IMG/VR virus record: IMGVR_UViG_3300033816_000174
Coordinates: 1-39,255 of that record
Source: a virus
Direction: 5' to 3' (one strand)
DNA length: 39,255 nt
Below are positions 5,861 through 28,636 of this stretch, piece after piece. The position numbers and the translations under genes are program-made. Position 1 is the first letter of the stretch. Each line of letters starts with the position of its first letter. The notes beneath the pieces were generated by a model. It saw only the letters and a list, made by a program, of their open reading frames with translations. It did no database searches and had not been told where the DNA came from.

Positions 5861-7486
5861 CTATTGAGACGATCTTCCCTCTCCTTGTGGATTTCTTCCT
5901 TCAAGTGATGCTGGGGAATCTGAAGAGTTGTTCGTTCTTTCTGCATCCCGCTGACGATTGCCAGCAAGATTTGCTCTAGCGTCTGTTGCTTGTCGTGGTG
6001 TCATTGAGAATGGTTCTCCACCGTCACCGTCTGGTCTTGGTGGCATATCAATCATTTCACGAGCCTCATCTGGAGTAATAACCTGTGTCTTTACATAACG
6101 CTCAATAATTTGAGATTGAGCAATTTCATCTGTAAGAGTTAGTTCGTTAAACTTAAGAGTAAGGATATCTGTCTTTTCTTTAACAATCTTATTAATGATT
6201 TTTTCAAGTTGTGCCTGTGCTGGACGTGCAACCTGTTCTTTAAAAGTTCTATCCTGTGACATTGCAGCAGCAATGGCAGCAGAATCTGATCCACCTAGTT
6301 TTGAAATAGGAACCTGATGTGCAACCAGAATATCATCACGATTTTGCTTTCGATACTTTTCAAAAGATGCTTCTTGAATTGCAGTCTCAACAGGCTCCAT
6401 CTTAAACTCAACCTTATTATTGTCTGTATCTCCAGGAAGTGGGATATAAAGAGTTCTATGATTTTGACCCTTTAGGCCAGTCTGCAAGAATCTAAACATT
6501 TTGTCTTCTGCATCTGCAGATAGTTTTGCACCCTTTACTGTAATAATATAGCGTGGGGCTCCCTTGTTTTGGAAGTAGTCAATATTGTATTGAGCAGCAA
6601 GTGAGTCACCAATTAGTGATGATACCGCTGAAATAATGTCTGGAATTCCATAATAAGTGTTTAATGGTGAATATTCTTTAATGTGAATAATCTCATTAGG
6701 ACGTGTATCAGTAGTCATTGGGTTTACGTTGTTGGCTCCAAAGTTACGGAAATAAACAACCTTTTGTCCAATAATTTGCACAAAACCATCACGGAGTCGT
6801 CTAACACGAATAGTTGTTGAAGGGATGTGTCCAACATATCCAATTTCACCAGTAACGGTTCTACCTACTTCTAAAAAGCCGTTGCCAGTAGCCTGAAGAT
6901 CTGTATATACTTTTTCCATAGTTGTTGTAAATGAATCATCATCATTCAATGACTCTATCCATTCACGCATTTCCAACTTCATTCTTTCAATTCTGCGTCG
7001 TGCACGTTCTACTGCAGCCTGATCATCACTTGTTTGAAAACGCAACATTGTTCTATCTGTGATGTCAAAATGATAACCAAGACCAACAACATTTTCTACC
7101 TTTGCATCAATAGCAGCATGGTTGGCAAAAGATGTATCGTAATAACTTGCCAACTCATACATGTTGTATGGAGGAGTGATTACGTCAAATAGTCCATAGC
7201 CATTACGATATACCGTTCCAGGATTAATCTGCTTTGATTCTGCACCGTCTCCAGATGGGACTGCGTTTGCAGAGTTTAGGTATTGATTGGATGGCTCTAC
7301 TGTGTTATATGCGTATGTTACCTTTGAAACATTTCTTGTTGTTCTGCGCTTAAAGTTTTGATCAATTCCAACATAGTCTTTTAGCACAGTCCAATCTTTG
7401 CCGAATGGATCTTGTGATTTAAATATATTCTCAGATTCTTCTTGAGTTCTAAGACTTGCTTGAATGTAATCGTAATCTTCGCTCAT
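5861..7486 (-). CDS. Portal protein (PBSX family)
   Basis: A 541-residue protein forming the dodecameric DNA portal at the capsid vertex. Family signatures are ANHAAIDAKVENVVGLGY near residue 120, the stretch EIIHIKEYSPLNTYYGIPDI (YGIPDIISA is typical of PBSX-type portals) followed by helices through SLIGDSLAAQYNIDYFQNKG, and the VAHQVPISKLGG loop. The C-terminus is a Gly/Asp/Ser-rich tail (PPRPDGDGGEPFSMTPRQA). Its start overlaps the end of the upstream 131-residue gene by 4 nt (ATGA), so translation is coupled. The protease follows after a 40-nt gap that carries a promoter-like element. Confidence 0.93.
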   Translation of the reverse strand: MSEDYDYIQASLRTQEESENIFKSQDPFGKDWTVLKDYVGIDQNFKRRTTRNVSKVTYAYNTVEPSNQYLNSANAVPSGDGAESKQINPGTVYRNGYGLFDVITPPYNMYELASYYDTSFANHAAIDAKVENVVGLGYHFDITDRTMLRFQTSDDQAAVERARRRIERMKLEMREWIESLNDDDSFTTTMEKVYTDLQATGNGFLEVGRTVTGEIGYVGHIPSTTIRVRRLRDGFVQIIGQKVVYFRNFGANNVNPMTTDTRPNEIIHIKEYSPLNTYYGIPDIISAVSSLIGDSLAAQYNIDYFQNKGAPRYIITVKGAKLSADAEDKMFRFLQTGLKGQNHRTLYIPLPGDTDNNKVEFKMEPVETAIQEASFEKYRKQNRDDILVAHQVPISKLGGSDSAAIAAAMSQDRTFKEQVARPAQAQLEKIINKIVKEKTDILTLKFNELTLTDEIAQSQIIERYVKTQVITPDEAREMIDMPPRPDGDGGEPFSMTPRQATDARANLAGNRQRDAERTNNSSDSPASLEGRNPQGEGRSSQ

Positions 7487-7878
7487 GATTCGTACGCATC
7501 TCTTCCGTGTTTATTAAGTGTGTCCTGTGCGGCTTTCCATGCACCTAAATCGTTTAGTGAAGGAATTAATCCCTGCTTCATTCTATCAAGTTGCTCTGAA
7601 TATTCTTCTTCGCTGACCCTTGTTAAGCCAGGAACAAAGACTGCTTCACCATCACCATCATCGCCATAATACTTTGCAGCATCCTTTAATTTGGCAATTT
7701 GTGCAATATCTCCACGAGTTGACTCAATGTTTAAGACATTGCCATCTTCGTCTGTAAACCACTTGCCGTTTGACTTCTTGTAAACATACAAACCCCAGTT
7801 ATATTTCTTTTCAATGACCTGACGACGTACATTTCCTACAATGGGCTTACCAGTTTTTGGACTAATTAATGGATTCAT
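7483..7878 (-). CDS. Conserved small protein upstream of portal, unknown
   Basis: A 131-residue hydrophilic protein starting MNPLISPKTGKPIVGNVRRQ. The first half is beta-rich with a WGLYVYKKSNGKWFTDEDGN segment; the acidic middle contains YYGDDGDGEAV; the C-terminal part is helical (SLNDLGAWKAAQDTLNKHGR). No enzyme motif is seen. It overlaps the portal start by 4 nt and is likely a co-translated head-assembly protein. A TGGTATACT element ends 7 nt before the ATG and predicts a leaderless message. Confidence 0.88.
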   Translation of the reverse strand: MNPLISPKTGKPIVGNVRRQVIEKKYNWGLYVYKKSNGKWFTDEDGNVLNIESTRGDIAQIAKLKDAAKYYGDDGDGEAVFVPGLTRVSEEEYSEQLDRMKQGLIPSLNDLGAWKAAQDTLNKHGRDAYES

Positions 7879-7885
7879 ATACTAA

Positions 7886-7894
7886 AGTATACCA
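7886..7894 (-). promoter_or_regulatory. Extended -10 late promoter TGGTATACT
   Basis: TGGTATACT on the minus strand with 7 nt between the hexamer and ATG 7878, so transcription would begin at or one base before the start codon. Confidence 0.6.
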
Positions 7895-7896
7895 GA

Positions 7897-10800
7897 TTAA
7901 ACGGGTGTACCCAACCTAATGGTCCATGTTGTGTCATTATAGACCTTAAGTTTCTCTGCATCGAACACCATTCCCTCTTCATCATCAATAATAATCTTAT
8001 TAGTTCCAATATATGTCTTATAAACATCTGAAGGAAGAACTCCATAAAGGTCTGATGCAGAAATAACAAGAACGCCTTCCCAGTTAAAACTATTAAGCCA
8101 GAACTCCCAGTCAAAGTTTGTTATCCCGTCAGTTTTAACCTTAAGCCATGGTCTTAGCAGACTACTTTGAACCTGTTGTAAATTATTAGCCTGGTAGTAG
8201 GCAATATTATTAAATACCAGTGGACCAGTTAGATTAATAGATCCCAGGAATAAGTCAAAACTTAGTGCACTGGCAAAAGCAATACCTAGTACTCCCCATT
8301 CCTTAATTGTTAATACTGGCTCTCTAACAATTGATCCATTCATAAAATAAGAAATACCATTGTAGGGAGAATTTGTTGCTAGGCTTGTAGCGTATATTCT
8401 TGCTCTAGTTCCTTCTGGATTATCTGCCACCATATAAAACTTTATGGTATCTGCCTTGTATTTTATTTCAAATATTTCTGTTGGTGTAATTGGGAATGCA
8501 TCTTGATCGTATCTCATCCAAACCTGGGAAGCACTAATACGATAGTTATCTGCAATATTTTCATTAATTGGAATAGAGATACCCCGACTTACAAGTGGGT
8601 CAAAACTTCCACGTACCTCTACTCCAGACGTTCTATTTAAATAAAGGTATGGGGTACTTCCTTTATATATACTAAATGGATTTTTAGCCTTATAGTCAAA
8701 ATATAGTCCAGACCTTGTGTATGGGAACATATCAATACCAAATCTTGTACCAACTGGATTAAACGAGTTATCATTAAATGCTTGTGATGCAATTTCTAGT
8801 TTTCTTAGATTAATCGGCTTTCTCAATATGCCACGAATATTAAAGTCAAGGTGGTAGACAAGTGCAAGATCATTAAAGTCAACTGTCTTTGTAGGATAAA
8901 TCAAAGTATTATCAACAACTTCAAACTTTGTAGATAACCAGTGAGGATACTCGTCCATATCAATTATTGCATCCTCTTTTGCTGGAAGAACTGTCGCAAA
9001 GTCGGTCTGTGGTGCATTTGCTCCTGATGCTATATACTGAAAAGTAATATAACTTCTAATAGATGCACCTTCTGTATCATATTCATAATATTTTTCTGCT
9101 CTTTGTGCCATATCCGCATAATCATTCCAACCAGTAAACAAGTTATTGTCTAGTTGTAGATATGTTCTTTGTACTGGGTGAGCGTATTCGTCTTTTAATT
9201 CTTGATAGGTCCAAGAACTTGTTGTCTCATACTCTTTTAATTTTGTAGGAGAAGGGTAGCCAATATTAAATTGCAAGAAGTCAAGGTCGTAGTATGTATT
9301 TCCAACATCGTTTGACACATACTTTGCAAAATATGACAATGGCATGTAGTCTTCCCAATACCCCGCAACGCCTATGTCTAAAAAGTAAGAGCCGTATGCC
9401 TGCTGTGGAAGTAGTGTATAACTTGCAGTATGTTCTAGCAAGGCTATTGCATTTGCTGACTCTTCTGATCCAGTTGCTAAGTAACTATCAACAATCGCTG
9501 TTCCATTATCTTCAAAGTGACTTGTTAGTTCTACCGCATTATATGATGTTGCTAAACCAACAGAATAAATGTTTCCAGTAAACTGGTAAATGCCTTCTGC
9601 TTCTCCACCAACATACATCTGCAAACCATTTTGATTACCAAAGAAGGAAGAAACATTTCCTCCAAATGAAGCAACTAGTGTTTTAATCTCAATTCCTGCT
9701 GCAAATTTTTCATTAGAAACAATTATTCCACTGGTGTATATCTCTTCTTCAACTCCATTAAAAAATAAATAATAGTGAACTTCGTCTAGGTCTTTTCTTA
9801 TACTAAAGTAGTTTCCAGTAAGCGGATTATATATCTTAAAAAGCGTTTCTTCTGTTAAAAGATTGTCTGATGAAAATACCCCATATATTGTATGAATTTC
9901 ATCACTTAAAACATTAAATGCTGGAAAATTAATGTAACAGTTTTGAGAGTTCCAAGTGTTGTTTGGTCTAAATGTTACAAAGTCATAATCTAATGGGTCC
10001 TGTATTAGTTTATTGTCTGCATATAGGTTTTGTATTGTTTTTGTTCCAAGATTAATGTCTGGCAAAGAATACTGAGGAGTTGTTAAAGAATTAGATGTTG
10101 TGGTTAGATTATCAAAAGTGCCTTGATCCCATTGTGCAAAATCTGGATAGTTGTAGTTTGATACATAGTCTGCAAATGGATAATCAATAAATGCTGCAGT
10201 TCCACCATATGCTGAGTTAATTCCTTCTGGAGAAAGAACTCCTTGTCCATAAACCCATCTTCTTTTTGCAACATTTATCGCAACTGAGTATGGATAAACA
10301 GCAACACAGTCAATCTCGATTGGTGTTACGTCTGTATAGGCATAGAAGCCAAGCCAATCTTGATTATCTCCAGATTGATTAACGATGTCTGGTAGGTCTA
10401 ACGTATCTGTATTAATTGGTAAATTAATTACTTCTTCGCCATTTAATAAAACTGTTGCATTGTTTCTAATTATTCTAACATGAATAAGCATTGGCCTAAA
10501 CCATTCACCAACAAAGTGTGATGCAAACTCTGTTCCTATAACAAGTGTTAAAAATCCTGATTCTACATATAGTCCATCTGTAGAAGAAATTGGACCAAAG
10601 ATTCTTTTTGCTATATAAGCATTTGAATTAATTCTTGTCCAAAACTCTACTGTGTATTCTTTGTACTGGCCTGACTTATTTAAAAATCCTTTTCCAGGGA
10701 CAATTAAAGATGGTTGATTATTTGAGTTGGGTGTCATTCTTGTAATGTTGCTTGCACCAAATACCATTGGCACTCCGCTATTTCTAGCAAGAAGTGCATT

Positions 10801-11542: not shown

Positions 11543-13570
11543 TTAGAGTTTTATTTCGCACACATCTGTGGTGCAATATGCCTCGCCCATAGCCTCAAGG
11601 TTGTCAACACCATCATAAATTGCATCCCAGTTAATCTTCTTAATTTGACCAAGATGTGCTTCATATTCTTCTCTTGTAATCTGGGTATATGGCTGTTGAG
11701 GATAAACGGTATTTCCCATTGGTAAAAATGATACCGCTTTAAGTTGACCCTCATACATGTGAAGTGCTGGAGCAACATGCTTTGACTCTGTTTCCTTGTC
11801 AAATGAAAGGGTAACAGAAACACCATTATCTGACCAATACTTTTGAGCAGTTGCAGCAAGAGCAATCTTTTCAAATAATGTTACATCCTTTTCAGAACGT
11901 GGATGTCCTGAATGTACTGGGAAATATACTACTTGAGTATTTGCTGATACAAGGTCTTTTTCAATCTTGTACCCCGCTGCTTTAAATAAATGAAGCATCG
12001 GATCTGTTTCACCAAAACGAATAGCACGTAGGAAGTATTCTCCTCCTGGTCCCCAGTGAACTCCAGGTGTTGCGCCAGAAAGAATTGAGACAGAACCTGA
12101 TGGCTTTACCGTTGTTACACGAATTGATTCACGTACACATAGCCACTCTGAATACTTGTGGTCGTAGTGACGAATCTTTTCATAGCCTTCATCCATCCAC
12201 TCACGAGTTGTTGGAAGTCCTCTTTCATCTGCAAAAGATGCAATGCCTGTTAGAGATGTTCCAATACGACGATTGCGTTGCATGATACCGTTTGTCTGCT
12301 GCCAATGTGTTGGAAGCAGTGTTACAGTCTTTCCATAAAGATATGCAAACTTCAATGTCTTGAGGAAGTCTTCCTTGGTTTCATGGCGATTTAAGTGCAC
12401 TTCTACAAGTGTACAAAGTTCGTATGATTCCAATGGCTGCTCCGCACAAGGATTGAAGCCCATCACACGGAAGTCTTTTCCGTCTGCTGGATCTTTTAGT
12501 CGACCATAATTTCTGGCAACATCAAGCCAAATAAAACCTGGCTCTCCATTGTCAACAATTAAATCTACATATTTTTCATAATCCATTCCTACGTTTGCAG
12601 AAATAGAATTATTAGACATCCATGCCCAACCTGGGTTTTCTGGATCAAATGAGTTTCTTTCAGGAAATGCTTCTGCATTTTTTAGATTAATAAAATCTTG
12701 ATCTCCTGGTGCGCCCAAAGCAAGAGTAGCAGAACGACGTACGTTTCCAGAAACAACACATGTTCCAATAAGGTTTACGATATCTGTAATTGCACGAGAA
12801 TCTAACTTCTCTCCTGCTCTGCCACCAATAACTTTACGAATACGTGTATGGAGGTCAACCAATGGCTGTGGACCGCTTGCAACCCCTCCAAAGCCCTTAA
12901 TAGGGGCACCTAGAGGACGGATCGCAGAGTAGTCAAACTCTTGAATATTCTGATTTGGCCTTAAAAAGGAATTTAACAAGAATCTGACAGACTCAACCCA
13001 TCCTTCACGGGTGTCTGGAATTTGATAGGTAGAGACTGGCTCTGTTGGTGCATAAATTGGATATTCTTTGTCAGCACCGACGGTATCAAATCCAACTCCA
13101 ATACCCAGCATTAATGCATCCATAACCCATGCAAATAATGCACCAGGGTCGTTACGGTCAATATCACGAGTAGAAACCATTGCACAGTTTTGCAATGCTG
13201 CAGAGTTCTTCTTTTCCATAGTCATAGGTGTACCAAATGTCCACATACCGCGACCTGGTGGAGTCCACTTAAGATTGAACATGCGCTCATAGGCTTCTTG
13301 TGCAGACTTCTGAGCCTTGTTATCATTCCAAGGAAGTCTGTTTTCCTTAGCATGGTTCTTTTGAACTGAGTACATACCCTCAATTACACGCTTACAAACC
13401 TCATGCCATCTTTCTTTTGTTCCGTCTTCCTTGATTCTAGAATAGGTGCGAATGAAAGTGATTTCTCCTAAAGAGTTATTGCCTGCGTCTGTAAAGCCAA
13501 AAGGAGGCTCAACCTCCTTGTATTTTGCAATAAAATCATCTAACAAACGAAAAGAAAAGATATCTGACAT
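11543..13570 (-). CDS. nrdJ: Class II ribonucleotide reductase, adenosylcobalamin-dependent
   Basis: A 675-residue enzyme that makes deoxyribonucleotides for phage DNA using a B12-derived radical; a monomeric Lactobacillus leichmannii-type RTPR by length and motifs. Visible residues: Cys129 (LQNCAMVS), Cys375 and Glu377 in NPCAEQ, Cys386 in ELCTLVE (11 residues after Cys375, the same spacing as C408/C419 in the RTPR), and the C-terminal CxxxxC pair Cys666/Cys671 (CTTDVC) that shuttles reducing power. The active-site motif reads NPCAEQ instead of the usual NPCGEQ. It is embedded among late structural genes. A 19-bp dyad and a TGATATACT element lie upstream. ATG follows GAGAGG at a rather long 12-nt spacing. 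Confidence 0.95.
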   Translation of the reverse strand: MSDIFSFRLLDDFIAKYKEVEPPFGFTDAGNNSLGEITFIRTYSRIKEDGTKERWHEVCKRVIEGMYSVQKNHAKENRLPWNDNKAQKSAQEAYERMFNLKWTPPGRGMWTFGTPMTMEKKNSAALQNCAMVSTRDIDRNDPGALFAWVMDALMLGIGVGFDTVGADKEYPIYAPTEPVSTYQIPDTREGWVESVRFLLNSFLRPNQNIQEFDYSAIRPLGAPIKGFGGVASGPQPLVDLHTRIRKVIGGRAGEKLDSRAITDIVNLIGTCVVSGNVRRSATLALGAPGDQDFINLKNAEAFPERNSFDPENPGWAWMSNNSISANVGMDYEKYVDLIVDNGEPGFIWLDVARNYGRLKDPADGKDFRVMGFNPCAEQPLESYELCTLVEVHLNRHETKEDFLKTLKFAYLYGKTVTLLPTHWQQTNGIMQRNRRIGTSLTGIASFADERGLPTTREWMDEGYEKIRHYDHKYSEWLCVRESIRVTTVKPSGSVSILSGATPGVHWGPGGEYFLRAIRFGETDPMLHLFKAAGYKIEKDLVSANTQVVYFPVHSGHPRSEKDVTLFEKIALAATAQKYWSDNGVSVTLSFDKETESKHVAPALHMYEGQLKAVSFLPMGNTVYPQQPYTQITREEYEAHLGQIKKINWDAIYDGVDNLEAMGEAYCTTDVCEIKL

Positions 13571-20730: not shown

Positions 20731-21819
20731 TTAATAATAAAGAATAACTGCACCAGCACCACCTACGCCACCGTTACCAGTTATATTGCTATTTCCACCG
20801 CTACCGTGTCCACCAGCACCGCCGCCACCGCCACCAGCGCCACCTGCTCCGCCATCACGCCCGCTTGCAGCACCACCATTACCTGTTATGCCAGCACCAC
20901 CGCCGCCGCCGCCACCAAAGGAGTTAGTTGAACTTGTGCCACCTGCTCCGCCATTAAAACCAAATATTGGAGAGTTACCACCAGATCCACCAGTCAAATT
21001 TCCAGCAGCAAGCGAAGTACCACCACCACCACCACCAGTAATAGCAGACATACCTGGTAAACCGTTTGCTCCTGTATTTGCAGCGGCTGAACCCCAACCG
21101 CCACTAAAGTTTGCTGAATACGCTGGTTGAATTACCAGACCCGCTCCACCACCTGAACCGCTCATAAGTGCCCCAAGACTACTATCTGAGTAAAGTCCCG
21201 CGTTTGGAACGCCAGACCATCCAGGTCCGTGAGCACCAGTTTGTCCACTTTGTTTTGCTGTTATAGAAAAACTTGTAGTATCACTGGGTCCATACCAACC
21301 ATTTGTTCCACCATTTGCTCGCAAACTTCCAAACGTAGAAAATCCACCAATATTTGGAGAAGTATTGTTTGTTGCATTTCCACCATTGCCGCCTGCGCCG
21401 ACAACAAGTGTGCTAGTAGGTCTTGTTAATCCAAAAGCAACTCCTCCCCCGCCCCCGCCAGCAATTGGTTGGTTGTTTCCAGTTGAGTTTCCTCGGTCGC
21501 CACCTCTGCCGCCACCAACAACGAGAGCATAAACAAAAGTTCGTCCACCAACTGATACGTTATTAGATGATGTATTAAATGTCTGTTGTGCTGACATATT
21601 AGTTGGGTTAAATGATGTACCAACTGCTGCTGCAACTGCATTAGCAATACTTGAATTTGTAGGAACTGCTGCAGCCACAGCATTAGCAATACTTGAATTA
21701 GTAGGAACTGCTGCTGCTACTGCATTTGAAATGCTTGAGTTAGTAGGAACTGCTGCAGCAACTGCTGTAGCAATATCTGTATTTGCTGGGCCTACTCCAG
21801 GAATTCTGTCAATAGCCAT
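20731..21819 (-). CDS. Glycine-rich adhesin (copy 1) with N-terminal 14-residue repeats
   Basis: A 362-residue protein starting MAIDRIPGVGPANTDIATAV after AAGGAG. Residues 14-67 are four tandem copies of TNSSIANAVAAAVP-like units (the first degenerate), probably a helical or beta-roll stem. From FVYALVVGGGRGGDRG on, the protein is a glycine-rich domain (runs of 5-7 Gly separated by short loops) that ends GAGAVILYY. This matches the glycine-rich adhesin domain found at phage fibre tips; polyglycine-II packing is known for T4-like S16 gp38 adhesins. Two further glycine-rich proteins lie at 24643 and 27164. Probable receptor-binding tip. Confidence 0.9.
   Translation of the reverse strand: MAIDRIPGVGPANTDIATAVAAAVPTNSSISNAVAAAVPTNSSIANAVAAAVPTNSSIANAVAAAVGTSFNPTNMSAQQTFNTSSNNVSVGGRTFVYALVVGGGRGGDRGNSTGNNQPIAGGGGGGVAFGLTRPTSTLVVGAGGNGGNATNNTSPNIGGFSTFGSLRANGGTNGWYGPSDTTSFSITAKQSGQTGAHGPGWSGVPNAGLYSDSSLGALMSGSGGGAGLVIQPAYSANFSGGWGSAAANTGANGLPGMSAITGGGGGGTSLAAGNLTGGSGGNSPIFGFNGGAGGTSSTNSFGGGGGGGAGITGNGGAASGRDGGAGGAGGGGGGAGGHGSGGNSNITGNGGVGGAGAVILYY
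21619..21780 (-). repeat. Tandem 42-bp repeats coding for TNSSI-N-AVAAAVP units
   Basis: Four consecutive units, the 5'-most degenerate, encode a 14-residue motif at the start of the first glycine-rich adhesin. Unit number could vary by slippage. Confidence 0.85.
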
Positions 21820-22714: not shown

Positions 22715-23464
22715 CTACTTATATTCTTTTGTTTGCCTATACTGTGTTTTGTAGGAATCAAAGAATTTGGTGCGTAGTTTACTTGTTACCCTGGCCTGTT
22801 CATTGAAGTCCTCCATAGTCCCTAACTCCATCTGCCAAGAATCTCTCTTGAATGGAATAACCTGAGCCATCGGGGTACCTGCAGGAATTAGACCCTCAAA
22901 CTTATCTGCCTCATTTAATACAAATGGGAAATTAACAGCAGCCTTGTATTGATCGGTATCTACAACACCAGGAAGAATAGTAAACATGGATTCTCTATGC
23001 AATGGTTGTACAAACAATACTGAGTACCCTGGTGGCGTTGCAATTGCCCAAGGATTAATCCATTTTGGATATGATATTGTGTGAGCACCCTTTCCAGGAT
23101 GCTGTGGAGCCTGCTCTAATGGGTGAAACTGAATTGGACTAAATGAAGGCCATTCATAAAATGGTTGTGTTGGAAATTGTGACATATCTGTATTTTCATC
23201 TAGAACTGTTCCTTCTGGAACTTGAGGAACTTGTTTTACCCATACATCTACATAGGTAGTTAATATATACCCGCCTGAAATTGCATCAAAGATTGGCATA
23301 CATCTTTTTGCAGTTCCAGTTGTTCCACCATTGCCGTCTGGTTGTTTGACACCGCTAAGATAAGACTCTAAATTTTTATACCAATCAGGCACAAACCTAT
23401 CTGCTGGTTTTGGACGGTATTCTTCAGGAACACCCATTGTATCTGTAAATTTAATAATTGTCAT
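22715..23464 (-). CDS. Conserved phage protein of unknown function (possibly DUF6065-like)
   Basis: A 249-residue soluble protein starting MTIIKFTDTMGVPEEYRPKP with GGGGG before the ATG. Recognisable blocks are AKRCMPIFDAISGGYILTTY, PPGYSVLFVQPLHRE, and the closing IPAGTPMAQVIPFKRDSWQM. I have seen this pattern in proteins of aquatic phages and some bacteria annotated as an uncharacterised family, but I cannot name its activity. The cupin-like wording (PLHRE ... IPAGTP) hints at a small-molecule or dioxygenase-like fold, which is speculation. It sits beside the sulfotransferase-like gene, so both may modify fibres or host surface. Confidence 0.88.
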   Translation of the reverse strand: MTIIKFTDTMGVPEEYRPKPADRFVPDWYKNLESYLSGVKQPDGNGGTTGTAKRCMPIFDAISGGYILTTYVDVWVKQVPQVPEGTVLDENTDMSQFPTQPFYEWPSFSPIQFHPLEQAPQHPGKGAHTISYPKWINPWAIATPPGYSVLFVQPLHRESMFTILPGVVDTDQYKAAVNFPFVLNEADKFEGLIPAGTPMAQVIPFKRDSWQMELGTMEDFNEQARVTSKLRTKFFDSYKTQYRQTKEYK

Positions 23465-23531: not shown

Positions 23532-24086
23532 CTACTGTTGTTCTGAAATCTTTAGTAAGTTGCTATAAACTTCTAAACAGTTATTAAAATCTTTATGATT
23601 AACTAGATTATTTTTGATATTTTGCAATTCATTTGCATTGTTTCTTGGAAGATTTATTTCTTTGCCTGAACTTAGCATAGAGTTTTTTATTTCTTCTATA
23701 CTGGTTTCAGATATTGGCCTAACTCCAAAGTTATTAGATATTTTATCTTTTATGTAGTTTAAGTCTTTTGTAAATTTATGAAAATCTAATAAAACAACTT
23801 TTTCTTTTTTGTTTAAAACTTCTGTATAAAATCTTAAGTAATACCTTATATCCATATCAAGAGTAGATTTGTCTTTATGTGGAAATATGTGCCAAGAGGC
23901 TATAGATTCTTCTGGATTTCTAAATGGAACAATTATTTTTTCAGACCTATTTAAAGAATTTGCTGTATGATAATTCATACTTGGTTCGCCTTTATAATAA
24001 AGAGAATTTATAGCAGAGTTTAAAAAAGTACTTCCACTTCTTGGAAAAGTAGAAATTACTAATAAATTTTTATTCGCTTGGCTCAC
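23532..24086 (-). CDS. Sulfotransferase-like P-loop protein
   Basis: A 184-residue protein starting (GTG) MSQANKNLLVISTFPRSGST. FPRSGSTFL (residues 14-22) matches the 5'-phosphosulfate-binding loop of PAPS sulfotransferases, and FRNPEESIAS (Arg56 then Ser64, an R-x7-S spacing) matches the 3'-phosphate motif. It is short for the family (usually 250-300), so it may be minimal or use another nucleotide. By eye it is more AT-rich than its neighbours, which suggests acquisition. It overlaps the upstream gene by 17 nt. A likely role is sulfation of a glycan, fibre or small molecule; unproven. Confidence 0.85.
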   Translation of the reverse strand: MSQANKNLLVISTFPRSGSTFLNSAINSLYYKGEPSMNYHTANSLNRSEKIIVPFRNPEESIASWHIFPHKDKSTLDMDIRYYLRFYTEVLNKKEKVVLLDFHKFTKDLNYIKDKISNNFGVRPISETSIEEIKNSMLSSGKEINLPRNNANELQNIKNNLVNHKDFNNCLEVYSNLLKISEQQ

Positions 24087-24459
24087 TATACTCTACCCAA
24101 GACGTAGAGTCTTCATCCCATGACCAGTAACCAGAATCTGGCTTTGCAACTGGTGCAATCCATTCTAAGTTATCTGAGTCTAAAGTCCAAGACTCAAAAG
24201 GCTTTGGTGCTAACCATTTTCCAGATGTTGCATTTTCAATCCACGTTGAATCTGAACTAGGTTGTGGAGACTTAAACTTTGTACCAGTCCATTCTGCTCC
24301 AATGCAAGCATTATTATCATTTTCTACAAGTTTATAAAAAACTCCACCATTTGCTAAACATATCGAAGTTATTAAAGACTCATCTTCAGAATTAAAAACA
24401 GCAATATTTGTTATGATATTTTCACTATTAACAAATGCATATGGTTTTAAATTAGTCAT
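24070..24459 (-). CDS. Fibre-associated protein with PKPFxSWTLD module (copy 1)
   Basis: A 129-residue protein starting MTNLKPYAFVNSENIITNIA. The N-terminal half resembles fibre-assembly chaperone-like proteins (AFVNSENIITNIAVF, EWTGTKFKSP). The C-terminal half has APKPFESWTLDSDNLEWIAP followed by WSWDEDSTSWVEYSE, a Trp-rich module shared with the 64-residue neighbour and with the protein at 26775. It overlaps the upstream gene by 8 nt. Confidence 0.85.
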   Translation of the reverse strand: MTNLKPYAFVNSENIITNIAVFNSEDESLITSICLANGGVFYKLVENDNNACIGAEWTGTKFKSPQPSSDSTWIENATSGKWLAPKPFESWTLDSDNLEWIAPVAKPDSGYWSWDEDSTSWVEYSEPSE

Positions 24460-24646
24460 TGATCTCTACCCATTCTAAATTTTCTTCACTCCAGTAGTAT
24501 TTTTTGTTTTCAGTACTTTCTGGTAATGCTGTTGGTGCTTCCCACAGACCATGCAAATACTCTTTTGTTCCATCTGAATGCTCATAATATTGCTCACTCC
24601 ATGTCCATGATGGAAATGGTTTTGGAGGTTTAATTTCTTCTGTCAT
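24452..24646 (-). CDS. Short PKPFPSW-module protein (copy 2)
   Basis: A 64-residue protein starting MTEEIKPPKPFPSWTWSEQY and ending YYWSEENLEWVEIND. It consists almost only of the Trp-rich PKPFPSW module with an insertion before GLWEAPTALP. It overlaps the upstream adhesin stop (ATGA) and the downstream gene by 8 nt, so all three are translated together. Confidence 0.82.
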   Translation of the reverse strand: MTEEIKPPKPFPSWTWSEQYYEHSDGTKEYLHGLWEAPTALPESTENKKYYWSEENLEWVEIND

Positions 24647-26007
24647 CCTATATACCTCAAAATAACAATTCCTGTTTGACCTGCTGCGCTATTTCCTCCA
24701 GTGCCAGAATTTAGGTTAGTTGTATTTGCTCCACCGCCACGGCCACCGAAAGCATAAGTTGTTCCAAAATAACTTCTTCCATTACCAGGTGCTCCGTAAA
24801 CTGTGCTGTTTTCTCCATTGCCACCAGCACCACCTGCTCCTCCACCACCGCCGCCTCCAACTGTAGTAAAGTTTGCGTTACCTGCCGCAGAGCCTCCGCT
24901 AGATCCATACCCTGTTGCATTTGCAGGACTTGATTGAGTATTTGATCCACCGTTCTTACGTGGCTGGGTTGCCGCTGCTGCGTTTCCAGCACCTCCACCA
25001 GAGCCACCATTACCGCCATCGGCACCTAAAGTATATGATGCAGTTCCTCCATAACCTCCGCCTATTGCAGTTATGTTATGAAAAACACTATTTCCACCAT
25101 TATTTCCTTGTGTAGTGTTATTTGTTGGTGCAACAGAGTTTGGGCCTGTATTTCCACCAGAACCGACTGTAACATTATAAGTTGTACCACCACTTATTGG
25201 TAGTGCTGCTGCATAGACAAGGCCTCCTGCGCCTCCACCGCCACCCACGGCAACCTGGCCATGGTGTCCTCTTGGATAAAATCCACTACCGCCTGCTCCT
25301 CCGCCACCAGCAATAACTAATGTCTCAACAGTGTTTAAAGAACTAGGTGCTGTCCATGTAGATGATGCATTAAATGTTTGAGTTAGTAGTGTTGGTGCTG
25401 CAACTGAATTAGATGCAGAAGATGCAGAAGATGTTCCATTAGCATTTGTTGCTGTAACTGTAAATGTATAAGAAGATCCTTCTGTTAAACCAGTAACTGA
25501 TATTGGAGAAGATCCTGTTGAGGTAATTGAGCCTGGAGAAGATGTTGCAGTAAATGTGGAGACTGCTTTACCACCAGTTGCTCCTGCTGTATATGCAACA
25601 AGTATTTGTCCTAAAGATGATCCCTTTGATGCTGTACCAATAGTAGGAGCCTGTGGAACAGTAGTAGCAGTAATGCTTGAAGAAGCAGAACTTGCATCAG
25701 ATGTTCCAACTGCATTTGTAGCAGTAACAGTAAATGTATATGATGTATTTGATTGTAATCCTGTAACTTGTACAGAAGTAGAAGATGTTGTTGCTGTATA
25801 CCCGCCTGGAGACGACAGAACAGTATAAGAAGTAATTGGTGCACCATTTGAAGAAGGTGCTGACCAAGTTACATCTGCTGCACCATTATTAAATGCACGG
25901 GCTGTTCCTACATCGGTAGCAGAAACTGATGTTGGAGCATTTGGTTTACCAGCACCCTGGAAACCTAAACCTCTTACACCAATTTGTCTTCCACCAATAA
26001 TAGGCAT
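24643..26007 (-). CDS. FN3-containing glycine-rich adhesin (copy 2)
   Basis: A 454-residue protein starting MPIIGGRQIGVRGLGFQGAG after AAGGGG. Two fibronectin type III domains follow (about residues 20-117 and 118-208; each shows the YTFTVTATNxxGT strand). Then comes a glycine-rich domain (about 215-454) beginning [15 protein letters not shown] and ending GQTGIVILRYIG. The architecture equals that of the protein at 27164. The FN3 pair probably positions the polyglycine tip; the latter likely binds a host surface polymer. Strong sequence repetition makes it a candidate for recombination with its paralogues. Confidence 0.92.
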   Translation of the reverse strand: MPIIGGRQIGVRGLGFQGAGKPNAPTSVSATDVGTARAFNNGAADVTWSAPSSNGAPITSYTVLSSPGGYTATTSSTSVQVTGLQSNTSYTFTVTATNAVGTSDASSASSSITATTVPQAPTIGTASKGSSLGQILVAYTAGATGGKAVSTFTATSSPGSITSTGSSPISVTGLTEGSSYTFTVTATNANGTSSASSASNSVAAPTLLTQTFNASSTWTAPSSLNTVETLVIAGGGGAGGSGFYPRGHHGQVAVGGGGGAGGLVYAAALPISGGTTYNVTVGSGGNTGPNSVAPTNNTTQGNNGGNSVFHNITAIGGGYGGTASYTLGADGGNGGSGGGAGNAAAATQPRKNGGSNTQSSPANATGYGSSGGSAAGNANFTTVGGGGGGGAGGAGGNGENSTVYGAPGNGRSYFGTTYAFGGRGGGANTTNLNSGTGGNSAAGQTGIVILRYIG

Positions 26008-26774: not shown

Positions 26775-27164
26775 TTACTCTGATACCCCTTGCCAATTTA
26801 ATAGTTCTTCATTCCATATATAAGATACAGGGTTTTCTGGGTCAGGGTTAGGGTATGCAACTGGTGAATTCCATTTGCATTTTTCTTCATCCAGTGTCCA
26901 TGAAGGGTATGGTTTTGGTGGTATAAAAGCATCCAATGTTTCGCTATAACTGTAGCCTATCCCTGCATAATTTTTTCTAAATGGAATTTTATTTTCTCTA
27001 TGAACACCATCTGCTGTATTGTAAGATGTTCTTTTACATGTTTTCCCTCTAAAATTTCCATACCAGGTCTCAGTGTCTAAACCTTCAATAAGTTCAGTTT
27101 CATCAATACCAACAATTACCTCTACTACAATATTATTTTCATCTAAAAATGCATAGTGTGCCAT
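26775..27164 (-). CDS. Fibre-associated protein with PKPYPSWTLDE module (copy 3)
   Basis: A 129-residue protein starting [21 protein letters not shown] chose ATG 27164, which overlaps the upstream stop (TAATG), over an upstream TTG. It contains the blocks FRKNYAGIGYSYSETLDAFI, then PPKPYPSWTLDEEKCKWNSP, then YIWNEELLNWQ. This full-length arrangement is a familiar small protein of T4-like aquatic phages. Its function is not known to me; it travels with fibre genes and may be an assembly factor. Confidence 0.9.
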   Translation of the reverse strand: MAHYAFLDENNIVVEVIVGIDETELIEGLDTETWYGNFRGKTCKRTSYNTADGVHRENKIPFRKNYAGIGYSYSETLDAFIPPKPYPSWTLDEEKCKWNSPVAYPNPDPENPVSYIWNEELLNWQGVSE

Positions 27165-28636
27165 TACCAACTCACATTTCCTGTACCAGAGTTAAATGTA
27201 TAAATTCTACTACCACCAGAAGTTGTAGCGTTATAACCTATTCCAGCACCAACTGTTAATGCTCTGGAATTTTCAGGATATTTAATTATAATAATTCCTG
27301 AACCACCTGCACCGCTTACACCATAAACATTTTGTCCTGGACCGCCACCACCGCCGCCGCTACCTGTTGCAGCAGCACCAGCATTTGCATTATTAAGCAT
27401 TGTATTAGTTGATCCAGTACCACCATTTCCACCAATACTAGATCCTCCAGCAGCGCCATTTCCAAGGCCATCTCTGCCACCGCCTCCGCCTCCACCTGCA
27501 TAAAAGTTTGCATTTCCAGAAATTGAGTATTGTTTTCCTAATCCACCAACACCGCTACTTTTTTGAACACCGCCAATACCTCCAGCACCACCACCACCTG
27601 CACCGATAAATGGAGGACCACCGCCAGCATTAGCACCTCCATTAAATCCAAATCCGCTTAAACCAGTAAAGTTTGTTTGTGTTGTTGAACCAGATCCTCC
27701 GCCACCAGAACCTCCAGAACCGCCAGCACCGTTAGGCTGATGTCCAGCACCGCCACCACTAGCATTTGCAGAACCAAACACTGTGTCAGACCCAACAGAT
27801 CCTATTGTTTTTAGTGCATTTTGTGCAGGACCACCTGCACCTACTGTTAGTGTGTAGTTTGTTGAAGGTGAAACTGAATATGTTGCACCATATAATAATC
27901 CTCCAGCACCACCACCACCTGCACCATCTGCTGAAGCAGTACCTCCTGATCCACCGCTACCGCCACCGCCAACCATCAATATTTCAACCGTGCTTGGTGC
28001 TGGTAACTGTGGGGTTGCGCTATTTGATGCAGCAGATGCCGTTGAAGTTCCATTAGCATTTGTTGCTGCAACTGTAAATGTATAAGAAGTTCCATTAGAC
28101 AATCCTGAAACTGTAATCGGACTTGATCCTGTTCCAGTAAGTGAGCCTGGAGATGATGTTGCTGTGTAGGCAGATACTGCTTTACCACCTGTTGCTCCTG
28201 CAGTATATGTAACAGTTGCAGATGCATTTCCACCTGTAGCAGTACCAATAGTAGGTGCCTGTGGAACAGTAGTTGCAGTTGCACTTGCTGCGGTAGATGA
28301 ATCTCCAGTACCAACTGTATTTATGGCAGAAACCTTATAATAATAAATTTGCGAACTTGTTAAAGATGTATCAGAATATGTTGTAGCAGATGTTCCTGTG
28401 CTTGCAACTAGTGTTGAATAAGTTGAGTTATCAGTAGATCTTTCAATTTTATACCCTGAAATTGTTGCACCATTATTTGAAGGTGCCGTCCAAGATAAAT
28501 CGATTCGTCCATTATTAAATGCTCTTGAAGTACCAAAATCTGTAGCAGTTAATCCTGTTACTTGATTTGGTTTTGCAGCACCAGCAAAGCCAAATGCTTT
28601 GTTAGTTCCTGCTCCACGAGTTCCTAGAAATGGCAC
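27164..28636 (-). CDS. FN3-containing glycine-rich adhesin (copy 3)
   Basis: A 490-residue protein starting with GTG, GGGGG 7 nt upstream ([20 protein letters not shown]). FN3 domain 1 (about 20-122: [20 protein letters not shown]) is longer than in the paralogue at 24643. FN3 domain 2 (125-213) is nearly the same ([20 protein letters not shown]). The glycine-rich domain (about 216-490) begins [17 protein letters not shown], has a [11 protein letters not shown] strand and then an extra ~30-residue tail ([19 protein letters not shown]). Likely an alternative receptor-binding tip. Confidence 0.92.

Follow-up and report, generated by a model that had tools for sequence, protein, structure and literature searches.

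A compact sulfotransferase-domain gene coupled to a fibre-associated partner in a viral genome record

A gene in the fibre cluster of an uncultured bacterial virus was found to encode a 184-aa protein that very probably possesses a sulfotransferase fold and a PAPS donor site in an unusually compact form, as judged from conserved motifs and a predicted structure. The protein is likely to be an active sulfotransferase. We see about an even chance that this PAPS sulfotransferase is recruited to the tail-fibre module via a Trp-rich partner, with a candidate acceptor on the fibre or a fibre-associated protein. The window, i.e. the whole stretch of DNA analysed, is an IMG/VR viral record of 39,255 bases, which may be a fragment. 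The relevant features are:

23532..24086, minus strand: compact sulfotransferase-domain gene (ORF, 184 aa; family alignment, AF2, Foldseek PDB)
24021..24047, minus strand: 5'-phosphosulfate-binding loop FPRSGSTFL, residues 14-22
23967..23969, minus strand: His40, candidate catalytic base
23895..23924, minus strand: 3'-phosphate-binding motif FRNPEESIAS, containing R56-x7-S64 (RNPEESIAS)
24070..24459, minus strand: phrog_7759-like Trp-rich partner, 129 aa (phrog_7759, E 8e-10), directly upstream of the sulfotransferase gene
24452-24646: 64-aa fragment-like gene between 24643-26007 and 24070-24459
24643..26007, minus strand: fibre protein with fn3 and Gly-rich parts, upstream in the cluster (PF21722, E 8e-18; PF00041, E 1.5e-16)
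26775..27170, minus strand: second phrog_7759 copy (E 6e-38), directly after the Gly-rich fibre gene 27164-28636
27164-28636: Gly-rich fibre gene (PF21722, E 1.4e-16)
22715..23464, minus strand: phrog_7084 gene (E 4e-52), conserved downstream neighbour and anchor of the comparisons

Reading frame, donor-site motifs and predicted fold

The preliminary description had reported a frame of 184 residues with FPRSGSTFL and an R-x7-S FRNP motif, overlapping a neighbouring gene. The frame is real, both motifs were confirmed, and the overlap of the 5' end with the upstream gene 24070-24459 amounts to 17 nt. The GTG start is the sole start ahead of the P-loop. In Pfam the best profile match of the protein was Sulfotransfer_1 (PF00685; E=0.0012), with 18.8 bits below the gathering cut-off of 22 bits. 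No match was obtained with the NCBIfam profiles and no convincing one with PHROGs. A tblastn search of 50,697 isolate phage records with the window enzyme and two related enzymes gave zero matches, and an exact-spacing DNA pattern covering both motifs found nothing in the viral contigs. Galactosyltransferase matches by phmmer (E 0.2) were rejected as noise. The compact family escapes current profile libraries.

The first two scans for relatives returned just one locus (L001), with 99.98% DNA identity the same virus and not independent. The phrog_7084 anchor has 110 relatives in IMG/VR; 80 loci bearing it were fetched and the slot was screened for diverged enzymes. Such enzymes were detected in the same slot of L039/L041, L055, L057/L058 and L062, and in the same region of L068. 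Relatives in other IMG/VR phages share 22-44% identity with the window enzyme. An alignment of the slot enzymes reached further relatives and two distant bacterial MAG contigs; in the genome scan, the relatives from bacterial MAGs were limited to these two, with 25-26% identity. L099 (3346-5557) has two family members in what looks like a single operon, separated by a 241-aa gene of unknown family.

Among 19 aligned sequences R16, G18, R56, P58 and S64 are the sole invariant residues, and these are PAPS-binding donor-site positions. His40 is invariant in the phage-only alignment A3 (14 sequences) and missing from the distant members L103-L105. It occupies what we take to be the position of the catalytic His of SULTs (KTHLP). 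The C-terminal RKGxxGxxK PAPS-binding segment of SULTs is absent from the family alignment. For every pair compared dN was well below dS (e.g. 0.09 vs 0.44 and 0.08 vs 1.18). Because of this and the residues kept invariant in relatives of 20-44% identity, the gene is not a chance ORF.

AlphaFold (AF2) with the 19-sequence alignment gave a model with pLDDT 89.1 and pTM 0.86, whereas the prediction from the single sequence was unusable (pLDDT 35). In the model the 5'-phosphosulfate-binding loop comes after the first strand, with a strand at 10-12 and a helix at 19-30. A Foldseek search of the PDB with this model returned sulfotransferases at ranks 1 to 25, headed by SULT7A1-PAP (E 4e-5, prob 1.00); matches include SULT1C3, SOT18, SULT2B1, SULT1E1, TPST2, Teg12 and StaL. 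Kinases and GTPases appeared with low probability only. The TM-scores against PDB sulfotransferases are moderate (about 0.39-0.54 over the query), values to be expected if some 100 residues present in the larger enzymes are missing from the domain. Among viral models the best-covering match was the uncharacterised 161-aa phage protein A0A6J5S636 (TM 0.69/0.78); annotated viral sulfotransferases came next. The preliminary description had named an unrelated predicted fold, or motifs not conserved in orthologues, as refuting; neither was observed, and both results favour its reading of the motifs as PAPS sulfotransferase signatures.

Trp-rich partner, fibre cluster and enzyme slot

The order of a Gly-rich fibre gene followed by a phrog_7759 gene is repeated in the window, once as 27164-28636 and 26775-27170 and once as 24643-26007, 24452-24646 and 24070-24459. 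The sulfotransferase gene comes after the last phrog_7759 gene. It had been placed between fibre-assembly genes; it does lie among Gly-rich fibre genes, but its direct flanks are the phrog_7759-like and phrog_7084 genes, both annotated 'unknown function'.

Further observations concern the surroundings. A fibre gene contains internal repeats at 42-bp spacing (window 21622-21775), and two fibre genes have stretches of about 79% identity in common (25408-25671 and 28022-28279). The internal repeats and the shared stretches indicate duplication within the fibre cluster. Among the structural genes an adenosylcobalamin-dependent ribonucleotide reductase is encoded at 11543-13570 (TIGR02505, E 1e-102). 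The phrog_7084 protein (22715-23464) has relatives of about 30-36% identity in haloarchaeal tailed viruses (Hafunaviridae), where they lie close to a baseplate gene.

The partner adjoins the enzyme, or is partly or fully fused to it, in 14 of the 17 core clusters (built at 80% identity). Of these 14, 4 have a full fusion and 3 a Trp-box fusion; the partner is adjacent upstream in 6 and adjacent downstream in 1. Full fusions occur in L097, L102, L113, L164 and L112 and were confirmed with PHROGs (phrog_7759, E 9e-18 to 6e-27); the window partner matches the N-terminus of the L097 fusion in direct BLASTP (E 8e-13). In the group of L055, L068 and L091 the Trp-rich C-terminal box alone is fused to the sulfotransferase. 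Partner and enzyme are overlapping genes in other relatives, by 17 nt (L087/L088) or 4 nt (L085). The distant relatives L103 and L105 have no partner.

Two loci differ in the state of the fusion. In L055 a phrog_7759-like N-terminal half (7174-7356) and the Trp-box with the sulfotransferase (7363-8007) form separate ORFs a few bases apart, i.e. a split fusion. In the L112 fusion (886-1728) the sulfotransferase half has lost a recognisable P-loop and kept RNPKDSIAS; it is perhaps a decayed or repurposed member.

The slot before phrog_7084 is an enzyme-cargo slot. A Trp halogenase (PF04820, E 2e-105) occupies the place of the sulfotransferase in the close relatives L006 (6412-8004) and L007 (3122-4714), with 97% identity at the neighbour protein.

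APS-kinase-like neighbour and possible roles

Many relatives carry an APS-kinase-like gene directly after the sulfotransferase gene or after phrog_7084 (representative gene: L088, 7340-8098). The first 84 residues of the 252-aa protein match APS kinases (PF01583, E 4e-17; PDB APS kinases, E 2e-12), the Pfam match spanning just positions 4-91 of 152. The apsK equivalog score is 62.7 vs a cut-off of 138.7, and the second half resembles NMN adenylyltransferase. Isolate phages have this two-domain protein annotated as kinase or hypothetical.

Where the flank was long enough, the gene was present in 5 of 6 anchor loci with the enzyme vs 0 of 46 without it (Fisher p 2e-6). This count includes near copies, so that the p-value overstates independence and should be taken as no more than an indication. 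Over a 3.8-kb flank, L062 and L063 share about 95% identity, and they have the anchor in common; L062 has enzyme and kinase around it, L063 neither. Classical Sulfotransfer_3 genes, too, have the kinase gene directly behind them (L085/L149, L169). One fibre cluster, that of L085 (2533-3378, 5998-6531, 6573-7409, 7412-8173), comprises three sulfotransferases of two families and the APS-kinase-like gene.

A strict kinase-sulfotransferase pair was rejected, since the kinase is widespread without a sulfotransferase: it was found in at least 600 viral contigs, most of which have no sulfotransferase next to it; a compact-family relative lies within about 5 kb of it in 13 of the best 80 contigs; and in Stenotrophomonas phages it is located away from any annotated sulfotransferase. 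The window's 39-kb record does not contain it. It is plausible from these sequences that the kinase is a helper supplying PAPS in the relatives; this is not certain because the gene is absent here, is widespread alone and has a second half like NMN adenylyltransferase.

In the proposed mechanism, the minimal PAPS-dependent sulfotransferase would take sulfate from PAPS inside the infected cell. The PAPS would be made by the host and perhaps boosted by the APS-kinase-like enzyme in relatives; for the window enzyme, whose record has no kinase, the host's own PAPS would serve. The Trp-rich partner would hold the enzyme at the tail-fibre module. As a guess from genomic association, the most likely acceptor would be a hydroxyl (Tyr/Ser/Thr or glycan) on the fibre or a fibre-associated protein, which would be changed before virion release and alter host binding. 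Fusion and coupling are the basis for placing the action of the enzyme at the fibre module and not at some other site, to which we give slightly less than even chances. Tentative, and somewhat below that, is a dedicated phage fibre-sulfation module, in which the compact enzyme, linked to a fibre-associated protein by a tether or by fusion and often accompanied by an APS kinase of its own, would sulfate the receptor-binding fibre (or tip) during assembly. Partner fusions and the kinase neighbour in relatives make the link to the fibre cluster stronger than originally described, but the acceptor stays a candidate.

An active enzyme could instead modify a host surface glycan, a lipid or a small metabolite and thereby alter superinfection, signalling or defence, its place in the fibre cluster being a cargo slot only. 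The Trp halogenase in the slot of L006/L007 speaks for this reading, as does the 2OG-Fe(II) oxygenase gene which some relatives (L103) adjoin instead, and we regard it as possible but rather doubtful. A free metabolic enzyme would hardly be expected to show repeated full fusion with a fibre-associated partner, and the Pfam Sulfotransfer_3 genes in L085 and L169 are unfused.

Fusion would also suit a virion-borne domain at the fibre that has lost catalysis and binds like a lectin, and L112 offers one fusion without a recognisable P-loop. Such a domain is improbable: nearly all members strictly keep the PAPS-site residues, which, like the APS-kinase-like neighbour, fits catalysis better. The weak single-sequence scores, with Pfam below cut-off, might even hint at another P-loop enzyme (kinase-like) resembling sulfotransferases by chance. 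We hold this to be very improbable, as both halves of the sulfotransferase signature and the His are conserved together and only sulfotransferases head the fold search. Compared with these alternatives, recruitment of a sulfotransferase to the fibre module is the reading we prefer.

Comparison with known systems

Cytosolic SULTs have about 250-300 aa and the window protein 184 aa; between the two motifs SULTs have about 80-90 residues and the window protein 40. The 5' P-loop of PxSGxT type, the RNPxxxxxS 3' motif and the predicted fold are the same as in Sulfotransfer_1 enzymes (PF00685; PDB 5x2b, 2h8k), and the candidate catalytic His lies at the KTHLP position. In contrast to these, the window family scores below the Pfam cut-off and is joined to a fibre-associated protein by fusion or coupling.

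The tyrosylprotein sulfotransferases (PDB 3ap3, 8w5z), which match in fold, would set a precedent for sulfation of a protein; they are larger enzymes of the animal secretory pathway, and Tyr specificity is without support here. The predicted fold of A0A6J5S636 (161 aa, uncultured Caudovirales phage, without annotation) matches well at 15% identity. The phage Trp halogenases (PrnA, T4-like cyanophages; PMC3037559) are unrelated modification enzymes, found in the same slot in L006/L007.

The preliminary description held that modification of fibre, capsid or host-surface glycans would be a new trait for such a phage. The enzyme type itself is not new: phage sulfotransferases with a Sulfotransfer_3 domain were reported as auxiliary metabolic genes and their role called unclear (PMC10580990), and virome sulfotransferases were classed among auxiliary metabolic or sulfur-cycle genes (PMC8290583, PMC13079714). 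The Sulfotransfer_3 proteins (PF13469) of OM43 phage contigs and Synechococcus phage S-SRM01 (PMC10580990) are likewise phage-borne, predicted PAPS sulfotransferases. Genes of this type in L085 are full-size (278 and 281 aa; PF13469, E 3e-15 and 9e-17), whereas the window family is compact and escapes the libraries. Titles, abstracts and passages from the open-access literature, outside which most subscription papers lie, yielded no report that links a sulfotransferase to tail fibres or describes sulfated fibres, which is weak evidence.

The fusion with a fibre-associated protein provides a concrete, testable alternative to a metabolic role, namely chemical modification at the host-binding end of the virion, and suggests that the structures with which some phages grab their hosts may be chemically decorated. 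Phage sulfotransferases as such were already known; the compact form fused to a fibre partner is new.
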